The translations under genes were made by a program, and so were the position numbers. Below are positions 22,543 through 31,200 of a stretch of DNA of 64,000 bases, piece after piece. The stretch spans positions 310,001 through 374,000 of the forward strand of contig NZ_CP006951.1 of assembly GCF_000830885.1 (NCBI RefSeq), in the 5' to 3' direction. Numbering within the stretch: the stretch's first letter is position 1; each line of letters starts with the position of its first letter. The notes beneath the pieces are model-generated. The model made no database searches and was not told the DNA's origin. It was given only the letters and a program-made list of their open reading frames with translations. Origin of the DNA: Dehalococcoides mccartyi CG5. Its GTDB lineage: Bacteria; Chloroflexota; Dehalococcoidia; Dehalococcoidales; Dehalococcoidaceae.

Positions 22543-23409
22543 TCATCTGGGCTGGTTCAGGTGATACATGGCCTGATAGGCTTTTTCAAATCCCGGTTCT
22601 GTACGGGCAAGGTTATCTTTAAGGGTTTGCATCCGGCGGGCAAATTCGGCCTTGTCGCCATTTTTTACCAACTCAGCCCATTCGGTTGCTCTTTTTATAA
22701 AATCGGCTTCCAGTTTGGGCAGCTTGGGCATATTTACCTGCAAAGAAGCATACAGGCCGGGGTCTTCGGTTAAAACGCTTTTGGTCAGGGTATCCAGCAG
22801 GCGGAACGTAGTACCGCCGGCACTACTTATGCCGGGCAGGTTTTGCCCCAGCAGGGTATCTGCCGATACTATGGCTATAAAGTGAGCCAGCCCCAGTACT
22901 ACGGACATCAGCCGGTCATGCTCTTCCGGGCTGATCAGCCTAACATTACCGCCTTGTTTTTCCAGCCATGTTTTTACCCCTTGGGCAAGGTCAGTTTCCG
23001 GGGCGGTGGTGGGTGTCAATATAAAGTTATACCCTTTAAGTGATTCAGCTCCCGGCCCGAATACAGGGTGAGTGCCTAGTGTGCGGCAGTGAGGCAGGTA
23101 CTGGTGCATCAGTTCCACCGGGCGTTCCTTAACTGAACACAGGTCAAAAACCAGTTGGTCTGGTTTGGTAAACGGGGCAAGTTCCCTAAGGGTATCTTCA
23201 AAAGCGTCAATAGGTACTGATATTATCAGACAGTCCATGTCTCCCAGCATATCAGGCCGGGTTGCCGCCTGAACGCCCAAGCGGGTGGCTATGGGTGCAA
23301 GTTTGGACGGGTTTCGCCCCCAAAGCCAAACCTGATGGCCATTTTCTGTCAGGAAACGGCCGAACCATTGACCCATTTTGCCGCTGCCGCCCAAGATGCC
23401 TATTTTCAT
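22543..23409 (-). CDS. tyrA: Prephenate dehydrogenase
   Basis: NAD(P)-dependent oxidative decarboxylation of prephenate to 4-hydroxyphenylpyruvate, the tyrosine branch. The 288 residues have a Rossmann start IGILGGSGKMGQWFGRFL, LGTHPVFGPGAESLKG (active-site His region, about 100-115) and VLGLAHFIAIVSADTLL. There is no ACT domain. It is the last gene of the aromatic operon; the ATG overlaps the pheA TGA by 4 bases. Confidence 0.92.
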   Translation of the reverse strand: MKIGILGGSGKMGQWFGRFLTENGHQVWLWGRNPSKLAPIATRLGVQAATRPDMLGDMDCLIISVPIDAFEDTLRELAPFTKPDQLVFDLCSVKERPVELMHQYLPHCRTLGTHPVFGPGAESLKGYNFILTPTTAPETDLAQGVKTWLEKQGGNVRLISPEEHDRLMSVVLGLAHFIAIVSADTLLGQNLPGISSAGGTTFRLLDTLTKSVLTEDPGLYASLQVNMPKLPKLEADFIKRATEWAELVKNGDKAEFARRMQTLKDNLARTEPGFEKAYQAMYHLNQPR

Positions 23410-24482
23410 ATGCGTTTTTTCATTTTCGGGTAAGAACCGAGTACTTTCATAAATATTACATGGTCATCGGCTTTTGCCAGTGCCTGTTTCACATTTTCGT
23501 CCTGACGGTGGCCTTCTATATCAAGGTAAAAATTGTACTCCCAGGGTTTAAGACGGGTGGGACGGGATTCCAGCTTGGTCATGTTTATTCCGCGGGAGGC
23601 CAGTTCCTTTATAAAATCATACAGCGCCCCGGCCTGATGTTTGACGGCAAAAACTACAGATGTTTTATCACTCCCGGTAGGAGCGGAATCCTGCTTGGCA
23701 AGGACAAAGAAACGGGTGTAGTTGTTTATATTGTCCTCTATTTCCCGTTCCAGTACCTTCATATTATATATTACGGCCGCTCTTTCGGAAGCGATAGCCG
23801 CCCCGTTTAAAAGACCTTTTTCTTTAATCATTTTGACACTGCCGGCGGTATCGTAGGTAGGTATCAGCTCTGCCCGCAGATGCTTCAGAAATGACTGGCA
23901 TTGACCCAGTGCCTGCGGGTGGGAATAAATGGTTTTTACCGCTTCAAGGTTGGTTTCAGGGTTGGCTATCAGGCAGTGTGAAACCCTGAGCTCATGTTCG
24001 GCGGCAACCATAAGGTTGGAATCCAGCAACAGGTCATAGGTGCGGGATATAGAGCCCTCAAGCGAGTTTTCCACCGGCACTACTGCAAAACGGGCCATAC
24101 CCTTTTCCACAGCTTCAAAAGTAGCATCCAGCTGTTCACAGGGCAGGGTAAGAGTGTTAGGGCCGAATATCTTCAGGGCGGTTTCTTCACTGTATGCGCC
24201 GGCCGCTCCCTGAAAGGATACAGTGAAGCGTTGCTGTTTTTTAGATATGAAAAGGATTTCCTGATACAGGGATTCAATATCCTGCGGGTCAAGACCCAGA
24301 GACTGGGCAAGTGACTGAACTCTGTTCAGTACCTCTGATTCGCGGGAAAGGTCCTGAACAGGCGAATTGGTTTCTTCTTTGATTTTGCCTATCTGGTCTG
24401 ACACTTCAAGCCGCTTTGCCATCAGCTTTACAAGCTCGGTATCCAGGTTATCAATCTGTTTGCGCAGGTCAGAAAGGTTCAT
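23406..24482 (-). CDS. pheA: Bifunctional chorismate mutase/prephenate dehydratase
   Basis: 358 residues in three parts: an AroQ chorismate mutase helix bundle (1-80, [25 protein letters not shown]), the dehydratase with [18 protein letters not shown] and the catalytic [10 protein letters not shown], and a C-terminal ACT domain with the Phe-binding [21 protein letters not shown]. It converts chorismate to phenylpyruvate and is expected to be inhibited by Phe through the ACT domain. It overlaps aroC and tyrA by 4 bases each. Confidence 0.95.
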
Positions 24483-25573
24483 TGTTTTATTACCCTTGGT
24501 ATTATTCCGGCTCTCAGTGCCAAATCAGCCAGCACTATGCAGGTCATGGCTTCCACTACTGAAACTGCTCTGGGTACAATGCAGGTATCATGGCGGCCGC
24601 GTATTTCCAGACTGGTATTGGTCATGGTATCAAGGTTTACGGTGGGCTGAGACAGGGAGATAGAGGGAGTGGGTTTTACGGCTACCCTGATATGGAGCGG
24701 CATGCCGTCTGAAATTCCTCCCAGTATCCCGCCGCAGTTGTTGCTTGTGGTGCGTATTTGGTCTGACTGGATATTAAAAGGGTCATTATTTTTTGAGCCA
24801 CGCAGACGTGATGCGCCAAAACCCGCCCCAAATTCCACCCCTTTTACCGCCGGTATGGCAAATATGGCTTTGGCCAGTTCGCCTTCAAGGGTATCAAACA
24901 CCGGTTCACCCAGACCAACCGGCAGGTTAAGCCCTATACACTCCACAACCCCGCCCAGACTGTCACCTTCTTCGGCGGCTTGCTGGATGAGGGCTACCAT
25001 TTGTTTACTGGCCGCAAGGTCAGGGCAGTTTACATCACTCTGGCTTATATTCTGGCGGATATCTTTGTGTTTAGGCAATTTGGCCGTTATGCCTCCCAGT
25101 TCGGCGGTATAGCCAATCACCTCAATGCCGATAGTGGAAATAAGTTTACGGGCAATAGCTCCGGCCATAACGTGCCCTGCTGTAATCCGCCCGGAAAAAC
25201 GCCCTCCGCCGCGGTAATCGTTGAAGCCTCCGTATTTCATAAAACCGGTAAAATCTGCATGCCCCGGCCTGATTTTACTGCGGGTGCGTTCATATTCGCT
25301 TGAATCTATATTTTTATTCCAGATAACCAGACAAATGGGTGCGCCGGTGGTGAAATTATTGAATATACCGGAAAAAATTTCTATCCGGTCATCTTCACGG
25401 CGGGGAGTGGTATGGGCTTTAGCTCCGGATTTACGTTTGTCTACCTCAATTTGAATTTCATCTACATTTATAGCAAGGCCTGCCGGTACGCCGTCAATTA
25501 CTACTCCCACGCAATCTCCATGGCTTTCACCAAAACTGGTAATCTGAAACAGCTTTCCCAGACTGTTAGACAT
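24479..25573 (-). CDS. aroC: Chorismate synthase
   Basis: FMN-dependent 1,4-elimination of phosphate from EPSP to give chorismate. The 364 residues show [14 protein letters not shown] (14-27), [36 protein letters not shown], and the C-terminal [18 protein letters not shown]. It lies between aroA (8-base overlap) and pheA (4-base overlap). Confidence 0.97.
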
Positions 25574-26828
25574 CTTGTGTTACCTTTCCGCCGAGGCTTT
25601 CCAGATTCTTCCAAAAATCAGGATAGGTTTTGGTTACGCACTCAGCATCTGAAATATGGGTTTCCCCGACAACTGATCCCAATATGCCAAAAGCCATGGC
25701 AATACGGTGGTCTCCGAAGCTGTCAATCTCTGCGCCTTTGGGTTGTCCGCCCTCAATAATCAGGCGGTCATCTTCTTCGATAATGTTTATACCCATGGCA
25801 CTCAACCCCTGGCTGACTGCCCGAATGCGGTTAGACTCTTTGATACGTGCCTGACGGACTCCGCTTAATATGCTTTGTCCTTTGGCACAGGCCGCGGCTA
25901 CTGCCAAAGCGGGCAATAAATCTATGGAGTGGGTAAGGTCTGCGTTTATACCTGAAAGGGGTTTGGGGTTTACCTTTACCCAGTTTTGACCGCTTTCTAT
26001 TTCTGCTCCCATCTCCGCGAGGAATTTTATCATTATGCGGTCAGCTTGAAAACTGTCTGTGTCCAGGTTGGATATAAATACCGGGGCGGCAATTGCCCCC
26101 AATGCCAGAAAACTTGATGCCGAAGACCAGTCTCCCTCTACCCGGTATCTGGCAGGCAGGTAGGGCTGGGGCGGGATGCTTATCTCTTGCCAGTCTATAG
26201 AAGAATGGACTTTTATCCCAAAGCTTCCCAGCGTTTGCTTGGTCATTTTTAAATATGGCAATGAAGCCGGCGGTGTAGCCAGATGGATTTCCAGACCGTG
26301 GGTGCAGGCTGGTGCCATAAGCATAAGGGCAGAAACGTATTGTGAGCTTATATTGCCGGGCAAACTCACCTTTGAACGGGTGATAAACTGTCCATTGATA
26401 ACGGTGGTATTGCCGCGGGTTTCTATCTCTATACCCAGTTGGTGCAGGGCTTGAATCAATGGCAACATGGGGCGTCTCATCAGGGAGTGCCCGGCCAGCA
26501 GGTGGCACTCAAAAGGCAGTCTGGCACATACAGCTGACATAAAACGCAGGGTAGCGGCAGATTCACGGCAGAACAGGTTGCCGGAAGGTGCTTTGAAGGT
26601 ATTGCCGGTAATTTCCCAGTTTTCAGAACCGGCGTCAGTGCTTATATCTATACCCAGCCCCGAAAGCACCTGGCGGGTAGCCAGAGTATCGTCTGCAATC
26701 AGGGGGCTTATTATGTGGCTCTGGCCGTTTGCCTGGGCGGCAGCTATCAAGCCACGTATGGTGTAGCTTTTTGAGGAAGGAACGGCAATATTTCCACCGG
26801 GTAAACTTTTATCCAGATGTATTTTCAT
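25566..26828 (-). CDS. aroA: 3-phosphoshikimate 1-carboxyvinyltransferase (EPSP synthase)
   Basis: Joins shikimate 3-phosphate and PEP. The 420 residues contain [15 protein letters not shown] (Lys of the PEP/S3P site, about 18-32), [27 protein letters not shown], and [15 protein letters not shown]. The motif around residues 80-90 replaces the common GNAGT with CRESA, as in many class II or divergent forms. It overlaps aroK by 20 bases and aroC by 8 bases in the aromatic operon. Confidence 0.95.
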
Positions 26829-27339
26829 ATTTCCTCAAACTGTCTTCTATTTCTTCGCAGACTTCATGGCATGATTTGTTATGGGTGGAAACAGTGATAT
26901 CCGCCGCATCTCTGTATAGCGGCAATCGGCTTTCCAGCAACTTTAACATCTTATCTGAACGTTCAGCATTAAATAACGGACGGTTTGTATGATTTTTCAA
27001 GCGGTTTTCCAAATCTTCAGGGCGGCTTTCCAGATAGACTACCAGACAGTTTAAACGCATAATGCTCAGGTTGTGGGGGCGGGTAACTATGCCGCCGCCG
27101 CAGTCTATAATCTGGTTTGGATTCTGGCAGATATCTTCCAGTACTTTGCTTTCCATCTGGCGAAAGTAATCTTCGCCATTTTCCTTGAATATATGGCTGA
27201 TACTTAAGCCTTCCCGTGTTTCTATGCAGGCATCTGTACTGACCAGCGGTTTGCCAAGCTTTTCGGAGAGCAGTTTTGAGATGCTGCTTTTACCGGCGCC
27301 CATAAAGCCTATTAAAGCGATGTTATTTTTCGTTTTCAT
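26809..27339 (-). CDS. aroK: Shikimate kinase
   Basis: 176 residues. P-loop [14 protein letters not shown] (11-24), [16 protein letters not shown] with the shikimate-binding Asp, and [11 protein letters not shown]. It phosphorylates shikimate at the 3-position using ATP. The start lies inside aroE (17-base overlap) and the end inside aroA (20-base overlap), which makes translational coupling likely. Confidence 0.95.
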
Positions 27340-28183
27340 CTAAAGCCATCTCTGCTTCTTTCATCATCACCCGGAAAGGGGCTTTTTGGCTTGTCCAGAT
27401 TTCAAATGACATAGCTCCCTGCCAGACCAGCATTTCCAGCCCGTTTATTATCTTGGCGCCTTTCTTTTCGGCATCTTCCAGCAGGCGGGTTTTGCATGGG
27501 TTGTAGATAGCATCTATGACCGTCAGGTCAGGACGCAGCAAACGGGGGGGGATAAGGCTTTGCCCGGCTAGATTTCCCATGCCTATGGGTGTGCAGTTCA
27601 CGATAATATCAGATTCGGCTAAAGTTTCTTCCAGATTAGCCTCATTCAGTTCCAGCCCCTGAGCCTTGCCTTTAAAACGCAGGCACATTTTTGCGGCCAG
27701 ATCTTTGGCTTTTTCCTCCTGGCGGGCAAGCACGGTCAAGTGTCCGCCAAGGGTACAAATAGCCAGTGAAATGGCATGGGCGCTGCCTCCTGCCCCCAGC
27801 AGGGCAAAGCGATGTTTGGCAGGGGCAATGCGGTTATGCTCCAGTAAACGCACAAAACCGCCAAAATCAGTATTATAACCTTTCAGCTGGCCGTTTTCAT
27901 TGACAATGGTATTTACCGCCCCAATCTTTTTAGCCGCCGGATCAAGGGTATCAATATATTTAATGATCTCTATCTTGTGAGGGATGGTCACATTCAGACC
28001 GCGTATATTCAGAGGACGCATGCTGGCAATTACGTTTTGCAGGTCTTCTGGTTTGGCTGCAATAGTCAAATACAAATAATTCAGCTTGCAGTGTTTGAAG
28101 GCAGCATTTTGCATAGCCGGTGAGACGGAGTGACTTACCGGATAACCAATAATCCCGAATAATGCATCAGGTATGGTTTGCAT
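27323..28183 (-). CDS. aroE: Shikimate dehydrogenase
   Basis: NADPH-dependent reduction of 3-dehydroshikimate. The 286 residues include [17 protein letters not shown] (substrate-binding Ser pair), [15 protein letters not shown] with the catalytic Lys, [20 protein letters not shown] with Asp, the nucleotide loop [12 protein letters not shown], and [10 protein letters not shown]. Overlaps with aroD (17 bases) and aroK (17 bases). Confidence 0.96.
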
Positions 28184-28835
28184 AATTTACCGACCGGTAG
28201 ATTTCAATCATTTGAGCCAGGGTCATCTGACCTGATGCAGACTTATTGCCGTCATTCAGGCTGGCGTAGGTAAAAGGGCTTCCGGCCAGCGGGCAGAGTA
28301 TACGGCTCAGAATGCCCGGTTCCCCCATGGCAAAAGCGACAATTTTCTTATCCGGTATCTCCTTTGTCAGATTAAGCAGATTAATATTATCATTTATTGA
28401 GGTGGCAGTGGTAATTACCTTATATATGTCCGCCTGGTGGGTGAGCATATCCTTTAGGAGCGTCTTAAGCTTGGCCGCAGAAGGAGTATCAGTAAAGTTG
28501 TGATGGGATAACAAGCACTTTGCCTGTGGTCTGAGCCGCCCAAGCACTTCCTCCAGATTGGGGGTGGAATATTCAATATCCAGCATGAAGGCACCGGCGG
28601 ATGCGGCTTTTTCCAGCCTGTTTATCCGCTCAGCTTCATTTCCTTTAAAACTGCCCCCTTCGGCAGACCTGCGGCAGGTGGCCATAAAGGGTTTGTTAAG
28701 TAATACCGCCGTCTCCCGCCAGTTTTCACCCAGCAGATCCAGCCTCAGTTCGTAAAAGGCTGCACCTTCACTCTTCTTCAGGGTCTCAGCCTGAGGAAGC
28801 TGGGTTATTACACAGCAGATTGGCGGTATTTTCAT
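28167..28835 (-). CDS. aroD: 3-dehydroquinate dehydratase, type I
   Basis: Schiff-base class I enzyme. The 222 residues contain YELRLDLLGE (28-37), CLLSHHNFTDTPS with the catalytic His, and IYKVITTATSINDN with the Schiff-base Lys. It dehydrates 3-dehydroquinate to 3-dehydroshikimate. It overlaps aroB by 4 bases and aroE by 17 bases. Confidence 0.95.
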   Translation of the reverse strand: MKIPPICCVITQLPQAETLKKSEGAAFYELRLDLLGENWRETAVLLNKPFMATCRRSAEGGSFKGNEAERINRLEKAASAGAFMLDIEYSTPNLEEVLGRLRPQAKCLLSHHNFTDTPSAAKLKTLLKDMLTHQADIYKVITTATSINDNINLLNLTKEIPDKKIVAFAMGEPGILSRILCPLAGSPFTYASLNDGNKSASGQMTLAQMIEIYRSVNYANHT

Positions 28836-29911
28836 TTCATTTCCTCCAGTACGGAAAGAACATCCGGCTTAAGTATATTTTCAGCTATCAAAGCCTCCCC
28901 TGGTCTTTTTAAGAGTATAAAGCGGATACGTCCGTCTGATACCTTTTTATCATGATGCATGGCTTCAATAATTTTGTCCGGGTCTATATCCTTGGGGTTG
29001 GTGGGTAGCCCGAAATCGGCTATCAGTTTTTCCAGCCGCAAGGCAGTTTCATTTTCGCATAAACCCAGCCTGACCGAGAGTCTGGCGGCAAAACACATGC
29101 CGATAGCTACCGCTGCCCCGTGGCTTTGGCTGAAAGACGAGGTGCTTTCCAGTGCGTGCCCCAGAGTGTGCCCGAAATTCAGTATATTTCTGATGCCGCG
29201 GTCAGTTTCGTCCTGACAGACTATGCTGGCTTTGATGGCGGCAGTCTGGCTGACAATATCCTCCATAACTTCCGGAGAACGGTCTTTGACTGCTTGGGTA
29301 TTTGTTTCCAGCAATCTGAACAACTCACTGCTGCCAATGGCGGCACTCTTTATTATTTCGGCCATGCCGCAGGCAAATTCTTTTTCGGGCAGGGTTTTCA
29401 AGCAGCCGGTATCGGCAATGACTAACCTTGGCTGGTAAAAACTGCCTACAATATTCTTGACCCCGCCATGGTTTACCGCCACTTTGCCGCCGATGCTGGA
29501 ATCTACCTGTGACAGCAGGCTGGTAGGCAGGTGGATAAGCGGGACACCCCGCTGGTAGGTGGCGGCTACAAACCCGCTCAGGTCGCCAATTACCCCGCCG
29601 CCCAAAGCCAGTATCGGGGTATTCCTTTCGGCAAAGTGGTTGATTAGCTGGGGATAGATATGGGCGGCCATATCCAGAGTCTTGTGTATTTCGCCCTCAG
29701 GAAGTTCCAGAAACAAGCTTTCAATGCCCTTTGATTCAAGGTGTTTTTTCAGCTTTTTACCGTAAATCCTGTTTATATCTATATTGGTGATGACTACCAC
29801 TCTGTCACAAGGGATAGCTTCCCTTAGGAGAGTGGCTGTTTCAGACAGTAAATCACTTCCTATCAATATCTTGTATTCACGCCCACTTAGATTAAGCCCA
29901 ATACTTTTCAA
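28832..29911 (-). CDS. aroB: 3-dehydroquinate synthase
   Basis: NAD- and metal-dependent cyclisation of DAHP. The 359 residues have ALGGGVIGDLSGFVAATYQRG (about 103-123), PTSLLSQVDSSIGGKVAVNH, and the metal-ligand region NFGHTLGHALES. The start is TTG at 29911 with AAGGAAAG upstream. It is second in the aromatic operon, 19 bases after aroF. Confidence 0.96.
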   Translation of the reverse strand: MKSIGLNLSGREYKILIGSDLLSETATLLREAIPCDRVVVITNIDINRIYGKKLKKHLESKGIESLFLELPEGEIHKTLDMAAHIYPQLINHFAERNTPILALGGGVIGDLSGFVAATYQRGVPLIHLPTSLLSQVDSSIGGKVAVNHGGVKNIVGSFYQPRLVIADTGCLKTLPEKEFACGMAEIIKSAAIGSSELFRLLETNTQAVKDRSPEVMEDIVSQTAAIKASIVCQDETDRGIRNILNFGHTLGHALESTSSFSQSHGAAVAIGMCFAARLSVRLGLCENETALRLEKLIADFGLPTNPKDIDPDKIIEAMHHDKKVSDGRIRFILLKRPGEALIAENILKPDVLSVLEEMK

Positions 29912-29930: not shown

Positions 29931-30986
29931 TTAGTGTTTTTTCACCAGTTTGTTTATCTGACGGCAGGTGTCAATGAGTTCTTTCAGTTCCGGCGGAGTT
30001 ATCATTTGGGATGCATCCACCAGAGCTTCTGCCGGGTTGGTATGCACTTCCACCATCAGTCCGTTAGCCCCGGCGGCCATGGCGGCACAGCTCATGCTGT
30101 ATATCAGATCACGCCGTCCGGTGGCATGGCTGGGGTCAACCATGATGGGCAGGTAGGTTTCCTTTAAGGCTATGGGTACTGCCGCCAAATCCAGATTGTA
30201 GCGGGTGAAGCTTTTACCCTTGCCCACCGGCACTATGCCTCTTTCGCACAATATTATATCCTTATTTCCTTCTGCGGCTATATATTCGGCAAAGGAAAGG
30301 AATTCTTCCATACTGGCACCGAAGTGGCGTTTGTACATAACGGGTTTGCCTTTTCTGGCCACTGTTGCCAACAGATCCTGATCATACATATTGCGCGAGC
30401 CTACCTGTAGTATGTCTACAAATTCGGCTACCAAATCTGCCTGTGATTCGCCCCGCACCTCGGTCATTACTGCCATCTCAAAGCGTTCTCCGGCCTCTTT
30501 CAGCCAGGAAAGGGCTTCGGTGGCCTCATCCTTGCCGGCAGAACCCAGCCCCTGGAAAGAATGGACAGATGAGCGGGGTTTGTAAACGCCGCCTCTGAGT
30601 ATCTGGGCACCGGCCATCTTTGCCCCTTCGGCTATTTTCATCAGGGCTTCTTTGCTTTCCACTGCGCAAGGCCCGGCAATGAAGACCGGCTCGTCTCCGC
30701 CGATAATTATATCTTTTACTTTTATCTCACGGGTCATTCCTTCAGCCTGCCACAGGTTTGAGTATTCGCGGCTGATAAGCTTGTACGGGGTTTCCACCAT
30801 ACGGGCTTCCTTGACGCCGGGCAAGCTGGAAAAGTAAGCAAACGGGATAGATTTTTCATCTCCTATAAGGCCGATAATGGTTCTGAATGCCCCCTTTGAT
30901 ACATCGGTCTTGAGACCGCAGCGGCGAACCTCGGCAATTACGTTTTCTAGTTCTTCCTGACTGGCATCTTTTTTCATGATAATCAT
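29931..30986 (-). CDS. aroF: 3-deoxy-7-phosphoheptulonate (DAHP) synthase with N-terminal ferredoxin-like domain
   Basis: Condenses PEP and erythrose 4-phosphate, the committed step to aromatic amino acids. The 351 residues comprise an N-terminal ferredoxin-like regulatory domain (about 1-70), as in the Thermotoga-type type I beta enzyme, then the barrel with FIAGPCAVES, GGVYKPRSSVHSFQGLG, QVGSRNMYDQDLL, VMYKRHFGAS and PIMVDPSHATGRRDL. The regulatory domain suggests Tyr/Phe feedback inhibition on top of the attenuation upstream. The ATG at 30986 follows AAAGGAGA. It is first in the nine-gene operon. Confidence 0.95.
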   Translation of the reverse strand: MIIMKKDASQEELENVIAEVRRCGLKTDVSKGAFRTIIGLIGDEKSIPFAYFSSLPGVKEARMVETPYKLISREYSNLWQAEGMTREIKVKDIIIGGDEPVFIAGPCAVESKEALMKIAEGAKMAGAQILRGGVYKPRSSVHSFQGLGSAGKDEATEALSWLKEAGERFEMAVMTEVRGESQADLVAEFVDILQVGSRNMYDQDLLATVARKGKPVMYKRHFGASMEEFLSFAEYIAAEGNKDIILCERGIVPVGKGKSFTRYNLDLAAVPIALKETYLPIMVDPSHATGRRDLIYSMSCAAMAAGANGLMVEVHTNPAEALVDASQMITPPELKELIDTCRQINKLVKKH

Positions 30987-31027
30987 GGTTTGCTTTCTCC
31001 TTTGCTTTTTATACCCGTATAAATCAA

Positions 31028-31054
31028 AAATCCCCCCGTTGCCTGGGAGGATTT
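31028..31054 (-). terminator. Attenuator terminator of the aromatic operon
   Basis: On the minus strand AAATCCTCCC (31054-31045) pairs with GGGGGGATTT (31037-31028), 10 bp with one G-U, around a 7-base loop. T-rich sequence follows (TTTTTGATTT counting the last stem bases). It lies 42 bases before the aroF ATG, inside the leader rather than at an operon end. Confidence 0.85.
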
Positions 31055-31121
31055 CTAACTTACTAATTGGTGGTTATTGGTTTTTTAGTAAAACGTTATC
31101 TCCCAAGCGATCCTATCTTGG
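31042..31121 (-). promoter_or_regulatory. Alternative antiterminator and protector structures of the aro attenuator
   Basis: In the minus-strand RNA, segment 1 CCAAG (31121-31117) can pair with segment 2 CUUGGGAG (31107-31100). Segment 2 can instead pair over 8 bp with segment 3 CUCCCAGG (31049-31042), which is part of the terminator's 5' arm. A 7-bp hairpin UUACUAA/UUAGUAA (31091-31085 with 31066-31060) sits between segments 2 and 3 and would bring them together. AAACGUU (31156-31150) with AACGUUU (31097-31091) can close the 1:2 stem from outside. Confidence 0.8.
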
Positions 31122-31161
31122 TAAAGTAGTAATAGTTTCTAAAGGATTTAACGTTTAACAT
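31096..31161 (-). CDS. Tyr/Phe-rich leader peptide of the aromatic operon
   Basis: A 21-codon frame from ATG 31161 to TAA 31096, too short for ordinary gene calling. Residues 6-15 read SFRNYYYFTK: three consecutive Tyr codons flanked by Phe codons, both end products of this operon. Segment 1 of the attenuator (CCAAG) covers codons 14-15, directly after the Tyr/Phe run, and segment 2 covers the last codons before the stop. This is the arrangement expected of a sensor peptide. The ATG is about 3 bases from the predicted transcription start, with no ribosome site, so translation would be leaderless. Confidence 0.8.
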   Translation of the reverse strand: MLNVKSFRNYYYFTKIGSLGR

Positions 31162-31170
31162 AGTTGAATG

Positions 31171-31200
31171 ACAATAGCATAGCTGAAAAGGGTTTGTCAA
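31171..31200 (-). promoter_or_regulatory. Promoter of the aromatic amino acid operon
   Basis: The minus strand reads TTGACA (31195-31200), an 18-base spacer ending TGC, and TATTGT (31171-31176): a perfect -35 and an extended -10. The predicted start is about 31164. The -35 shares bases with the -35 of the divergent rpsL promoter P1. Confidence 0.8.

Follow-up and report, generated by a model that had tools for sequence, protein, structure and literature searches.

Ribosome-mediated attenuators of the trp, phe (pheA, pheST), his, and thr type in Proteobacteria combine control codons clustered in a short leader ORF, RNA segments whose 1:2, 2:3, and 3:4 pairings are mutually exclusive, and a terminator before the first gene. 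A 2010 survey (PMC2965389) stated that, until its own case from Firmicutes, demonstrations of leader-peptide attenuation were confined to Proteobacteria and Actinobacteria. The nearest precedent for the locus considered here is the uORFC-13-1 motif before Acholeplasma aroF (PMC8632094), which likewise consists of a candidate uORF and a terminator before the gene for DAHP synthase, with a U run coding Phe; it is confined to Acholeplasma and environmental sequences (24 sequences) and has at least one Phe codon. In the leaderless attenuator peptides of S. meliloti trpL (PMC7298713) and C. glutamicum ilvBNC (PMC11857589), the ORF begins at or next to the 5' end of the transcript.

The leader of the Dehalococcoides mccartyi CG5 aroF operon, for which the anatomy, conservation, 2:3 covariation, and operon content are established here, differs from the proteobacterial attenuators in its phylum, its Tyr and Phe codons, and its single leader for a whole shikimate-to-Phe/Tyr operon, as well as in a probably leaderless ORF, a very weak 1:2 pairing in Dehalococcoides, and the lack of an Rfam match. 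Compared with uORFC-13-1, the Dehalococcoidia leader has Tyr/Phe runs and 2:3 covariation, and is spread through much of the class. The two leaderless precedents belong to other phyla and concern other amino acids, whereas leaderless and longer-UTR versions occur within one kind of leader in Dehalococcoidia.

Anatomy of the aroF leader and its operon

Coordinates refer to the window, that is, the whole 64-kb stretch of CG5 DNA that was analysed. The parts of the attenuator span 31200-31025 and follow one another on the minus strand as promoter, leader ORF, segments 1-4, and T-rich tract:

31195..31200, minus strand: -35 hexamer TTGACA, read from the sequence
31171..31176, minus strand: -10 hexamer TATTGT, read from the sequence, with an 18-nt spacer and a TG before it
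31096..31161, minus strand: leader peptide ORF MLNVKSFRNYYYFTKIGSLGR, 21 codons and TAA, ATG at 31161, probably leaderless
31123..31134, minus strand: control codons Tyr10 Tyr11 Tyr12 Phe13 (TAT TAC TAC TTT)
31117..31121, minus strand: segment 1, CCAAG, a weak protector with segment 2
31100..31108, minus strand: segment 2, antiterminator 5' arm, GCTTGGGAG (CTTGGGAG at 31107-31100)
31041..31049, minus strand: segment 3, antiterminator 3' arm, CTCCCAGGC (CTCCCAGG at 31049-31042)
31037-31028, minus strand: segment 4, GGGGGGATTT
31030-31026, minus strand: T-rich tract
31025..31057, minus strand: intrinsic terminator hairpin 3:4 with T-rich 3' arm, TAGAAATCCTCCC-AGGCAAC-GGGGGGATTTTTG

The aromatic residues of the ORF are Phe7, Tyr10, Tyr11, Tyr12, and Phe13. 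Segment 3 bases overlap the 5' arm and loop of the terminator, and the 3' end of the hairpin lies 38 nt upstream of aroF; the hairpin does not include the purine-rich site that precedes the aroF ATG. Two properties of trp/phe/his-type attenuators are thereby met: clustered product codons in a short ORF, and an intrinsic terminator between that ORF and the first gene. The genes behind the leader, in the order aroF-aroB-aroD-aroE-aroK-aroA-aroC-pheA-tyrA, include those for Phe and Tyr synthesis:

29931..30986, minus strand: aroF, DAHP synthase (NF006421, TIGR01361)
28832..29911, minus strand: aroB (TIGR01357)
28167..28835, minus strand: aroD (TIGR01093)
27323..28183, minus strand: aroE (NF001322)
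26809..27339, minus strand: aroK-like shikimate kinase (best NCBIfam matches are shikimate kinases, below curated cut-offs)
25566..26828, minus strand: aroA (TIGR01356)
24479..25573, minus strand: aroC (TIGR00033)
23406..24482, minus strand: pheA, chorismate mutase/prephenate dehydratase (NF008865)
22543..23409, minus strand: tyrA, prephenate dehydrogenase (NF006409)

The next gene after tyrA, for NAD kinase, starts 484 nt beyond. A first-pass annotation, made without database searches, had described the promoter, the 21-codon ORF, four segments, and a T-rich tract, every one of which is present in the sequence, and a nine-gene aromatic operon, which NCBIfam upholds except that aroK rests on the sub-threshold matches alone. 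Of the exclusive pairings that it claimed, 3:4 and 2:3 held, the latter by covariation; 1:2 rests on computed folding alone and is weak, with only 5 bp (-4.9 kcal/mol) in CG5. The RNA folding that it proposed as a check places the leader at -45.3 kcal/mol, well below the shuffled mean of -27.5 (z -4.5; 0/200 shuffles). An Rfam search of the window returned no family match at gathering score, including the Trp, Phe, and His leader families.

Conservation among aroF leaders

Upstream regions of aroF were taken from 11 genomes of the family Dehalococcoidaceae and from genome contigs; 76 bacterial regions had sufficient upstream sequence. An automatic test, requiring a terminator and an ORF that starts with ATG, is 18-33 aa long, and has 4-9 Tyr/Phe within ten codons, was passed by 75 of the 76. 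Under the same best-of selection, dinucleotide shuffles reached four Tyr/Phe per ten codons in 4.7% of cases and five in 0.8%; given its recurrence in 75/76 regions, the layout is not due to chance. The sole failing region (L097) has a Tyr/Phe-containing ORF visible by eye but no terminator accepted by the finder. On inspection by eye, the leader is absent from three archaeal-labelled contigs (L088, L093, L094). One contig that is titled Dehalococcoides mccartyi (L068, DYGU01000008.1) carries an aroF only 64% identical to that of CG5, and its species label is probably wrong.

The Tyr/Phe cluster is present in all 75 scored leaders and exact TTGACA in 74, the lone exception having short upstream sequence. 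Tyr and Phe make up 25% of leader peptide residues, and the control codons vary synonymously (TAT 171, TAC 130, TTT 123, TTC 29). Peptide lengths and ends are highly variable; conservation is largely limited to the Tyr/Phe run and to bases engaged in RNA pairing. A Trp codon lies inside or directly after the run in 47/75 leaders; it often overlaps segment 1, and sensing of Trp, which remains a possibility, cannot be separated from RNA pairing.

Covariation of the antiterminator

The swap test for pairing 2:3 scored the whole stretch holding segment 2, rather than a segment 2 picked by its fit to its own segment 3. This spacer pairs with its own segment 3 and loop at -19.2 kcal/mol and with the segment 3 of other loci at -15.4 (0/2000 permutations); the effect is absent from a same-sense 2:4 swap control. 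Position by position, one pair between segment 2 and the terminator loop occurs as T-A in 21 leaders, C-G in 7, and G-C in 7 (0/2000 shuffles), and the covarying loop bases are unpaired in the terminator. Shuffles disregard relatedness, so the set was thinned to 47 leaders below approximately 70% identity, 40 of which formed the set for the alignment, RNAalifold, and the covariation score. Without a supplied structure, RNAalifold returned 2:3 from these 40 leaders, with compensatory changes in 5/6 pairs; the covariation score is 0.352 versus 0.213 for shuffles (0/500), and every slid register scores lower. Covariation thus establishes the mutually exclusive antiterminator expected of a ribosome-mediated attenuator.

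Segment 1:2 and computed switching

The evidence for pairing 1:2 comes from folding only, without covariation data: a local 1:2 fold of -1 kcal/mol or lower is found in 75/75 leaders (median -11.3 kcal/mol; mean z -1.87). It is predicted to be strong in Dehalogenimonas-type leaders (about -14 kcal/mol) and weak in Dehalococcoides. The final Tyr/Phe codon precedes the first paired base of 1:2 by a median of 1 nt, and therefore a stalled ribosome would cover segment 1; in 74/75 leaders the stop codon lies in the range from 3 nt upstream to 45 nt downstream of the first base of segment 2. The spacing inferred for attenuation, with control codons that would let a stalled ribosome cover segment 1 and a stop codon near segment 2, is accordingly met as far as the sequences can indicate.

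Before segment 4 emerges, masking of segment 1 lifts the mean computed P(2:3) from 0.54 to 0.88. For CG5 the equilibrium model gives no switch because 1:2 has only 5 bp: P(2:3) before segment 4 is 0.95 with free RNA and 0.96 with a stalled ribosome, and once segment 4 exists P(3:4) is 0.93 even with a stalled ribosome. The switch in CG5 must therefore be kinetic and depend on a ribosome covering segment 2. The modelled case of a ribosome at the stop codon is zero by construction and hence provides no evidence. The prediction for CG5 is that untranslated RNA should favour antitermination and that termination should need a ribosome over segment 2; the difference from Dehalogenimonas-type leaders is likewise predicted.

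A probable leaderless start

The leader ATG of CG5 is 9 nt past the -10 hexamer. Among the 74 leaders with a called promoter this distance is 6-10 nt in 25, including nearly all from Dehalococcoidaceae; the gap is longer in most others. Transcription usually starts 6-8 nt after the -10, so an ORF placed at this distance would be leaderless or nearly so. The start site and translation are inferred, and on this basis the leader peptide of Dehalococcoidaceae is probably translated from a leaderless or near-leaderless transcript.

Proposed mechanism and alternatives

In all likelihood, the aroF leader attenuates transcription by way of a translating ribosome and in this manner senses charged tRNA-Tyr and tRNA-Phe; there are no transcript, ribosome, or starvation data, and the point where transcription begins, synthesis of the peptide, ribosome stalling, and the direction in which the leader responds are inferred. 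RNA polymerase would start immediately before the leader ATG, and a ribosome would load on the leaderless or nearly leaderless ORF. With ample Tyr and Phe, the ribosome would reach the stop codon and cover segment 2, and the 3:4 terminator would form before aroF. When Tyr- or Phe-tRNA is scarce, the ribosome would stall at the Tyr-Tyr-Tyr-Phe run, covering segment 1; segment 2 would then pair with segment 3 before segment 4 is made, and transcription would proceed into aroF-tyrA. The first-pass annotation had inferred such control of aroF through tyrA by tRNA charging, an inference that is supported with starvation response and peptide translation still inferred. Loss of the Tyr/Phe codons or of stem complementarity in relatives, which it had named as refuting, is not seen: the codons are kept in every scored leader, and 2:3 shows compensatory changes that include terminator-unpaired bases.

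Any type of attenuator could have a strong terminator together with a conserved alternative pairing, including a metabolite-binding riboswitch or a protein-binding leader RNA to which the Tyr/Phe ORF is incidental. This reading is very improbable: the Tyr/Phe codons are retained while the remaining peptide and the RNA drift, the control codons vary synonymously, and there is neither an Rfam family in the window nor a conserved aptamer-like core in the leader alignment. A T-box sensing uncharged tRNA directly has in its favour that T-boxes occur in these genomes, as in the trp operon leader (RF00230), but it is practically ruled out, given no RF00230 match at gathering score in the window and the short-ORF attenuator layout of the aroF leader. 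The riboswitch and T-box readings were both rejected for want of an Rfam or RF00230 match.

The peptide might instead be primarily a trans-acting small protein, attenuation being its lesser role, and trans functions of attenuator peptides are known, as for S. meliloti peTrpL (PMC7298713). The variable ends and lengths of the peptides make this most unlikely as the main role, although an added trans role is not excluded. Translation attenuation, in which the hairpin would hide the aroF ribosome-binding site rather than end transcription, draws some support from the 38 nt between hairpin and aroF; the T-rich tract after the hairpin, and the position of the purine-rich site outside it, leave little room for this explanation. 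Attenuation of transcription by a translating ribosome remains the preferred reading.

Distribution and a second, Phe-biased leader

A covariance model built only from the 40 aroF leaders (R1) has matches in 45/294 genomes of the class Dehalococcoidia; in a draw of 301 genomes from the phylum, almost only the same lineages matched. The matches read in other families mostly lie before aroF-type genes and contain Tyr/Phe runs, apart from a few near-threshold ones. Class members with a more distant aroF (many other Dehalococcoidia families) have upstream regions that, where read, are mostly without the element. By inspection, three Chloroflexota genomes outside Dehalococcoidia (L138, L145, L152) have similar short Tyr/Phe ORFs with terminators.

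R1 also finds a second site in the same genomes, ahead of an AMP-forming CoA ligase of 630 aa followed by LIV-type permeases, an arrangement shared by the ten loci examined from Dehalococcoidaceae and by five others:

L223:3163-3319, minus strand: second leader, Phe-biased, ahead of the AMP-forming CoA ligase
L221, L222, L224-L230, L232-L234, L236, L237, L253, L256: other second-leader loci, with LIV-type permeases behind in the Dehalococcoidales loci

In Dehalococcoides, iorAB (identified by TIGR03336 and NF005322) adjoins the second-leader operon and is divergent from it; iorAB lies upstream of the ligase operon in genome G317, and iorA lies behind a different, more distant ligase in G398. 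The second-copy leaders retain F-x-F before the stem, and their Phe:Tyr ratio is 50:19 versus 192:313 in aroF leaders (Fisher p 9e-8, with residues not independent). Two ligase leaders of another family (L253, L256) are nearly pure Phe runs, with eight Phe codons in L256. For the 11 second-copy leaders that differ most from one another, the swap test is not significant (645/5000), and their 2:3 pairing therefore rests on homology and individual folds.

Single R1 matches (L231, L235, L238, L239, L240) also occur ahead of genes for an aminotransferase-like protein with no Pfam match for its first 90 aa, a molybdopterin oxidoreductase, a CoA-transferase III, a ligase followed by iorA, and a second DAHP synthase with the leader WYFFGFWF.

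Judged from sequence alone, the second copy is homologous to the aroF leader, which would make a small regulon in this lineage. The indolepyruvate oxidoreductase route is known in methanogens; by analogy with it, and from gene content, the CoA ligase may have a salvage role, the role and substrate being inferred. A bolder reading, to be taken as one joint claim and as likely right as wrong, is that duplicated leaders with split specificity form an aromatic attenuator regulon of Dehalococcoidia. A Tyr and Phe leader would serve the shikimate operon, and a Phe-biased leader (nearly pure Phe in one family) would serve a CoA ligase/LIV-type transporter operon. Together with indolepyruvate:ferredoxin oxidoreductase, the products of this operon would regenerate aromatic amino acids from aryl acids taken up by the cell, and the leader ORF would have switched between leaderless and longer-UTR starts in evolution.

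Other amino acid operons

A T-box (RF00230) lies upstream of trpE in the CG5 genome and a sister-genus genome (L107, L113). Like the proposed aroF attenuator, it responds to tRNA charging and acts on an aromatic operon through a terminator; unlike that attenuator, it makes direct contact with uncharged tRNA and works without a ribosome. Two sensors of tRNA charging would, by this inference, divide the aromatic pathways, with the T-box on trp and the attenuator on the aroF operon.

Within Dehalococcoidaceae, pheS has no leader, ilvB and hisG sit within operons, and no clear amino acid leader ORF is seen where the ilv and his clusters begin. Directly before ilvD (L193, L195, L197) there is a small, terminator-like hairpin (CCGTCC...GGACGG) with T-rich sequence behind it, without an obvious leader ORF. 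Two side-by-side hisG family matches share one 472-aa open frame (G000:C1:687190-688509; L172, L181) in 11/11 family genomes, possibly a duplicated HisG domain. Ahead of a homoserine dehydrogenase-like gene (L248, genome G399), a short ORF, MTHVFGMTMTTTITLHGGRAI, and a CCCTCCC...GGAGGG hairpin may constitute a Thr leader; no such leader was found at homoserine dehydrogenase in Dehalococcoidaceae. A Pro/Ile/Met-rich short ORF, MALMPIPPMPIAPIPGLKARSGG, and a hairpin precede a threonine synthase-like gene (L250, genome G437).

Novelty and significance

The first-pass annotation held that such an attenuator had not been described in Chloroflexota, and no contrary description of leader-peptide attenuation in this phylum was found in the open-access literature searched; a prior prediction is not excluded, and subscription papers were mostly not covered. 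Dehalococcoides is covered by a 2024 motif survey, which names an rdhA motif, and the aroF attenuator was not found in the passages searched. Three points go beyond what the first-pass annotation contained: the start is probably leaderless, 1:2 varies between lineages, and there is a second copy biased towards Phe. The aroF leader very probably represents a known, classical mechanism in a new lineage, with control codons for Tyr and Phe, a start that is probably leaderless, and an additional copy biased to Phe.

As a widely conserved Tyr/Phe case supported by covariation, it extends the known range of leader-peptide attenuation. It also offers a testable point on leaderless translation, in that the coupling of transcription and translation must operate where an ORF begins at the very 5' end. 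The second leader provides a clue to the function of an unassigned CoA ligase/transporter operon in organohalide-respiring bacteria.
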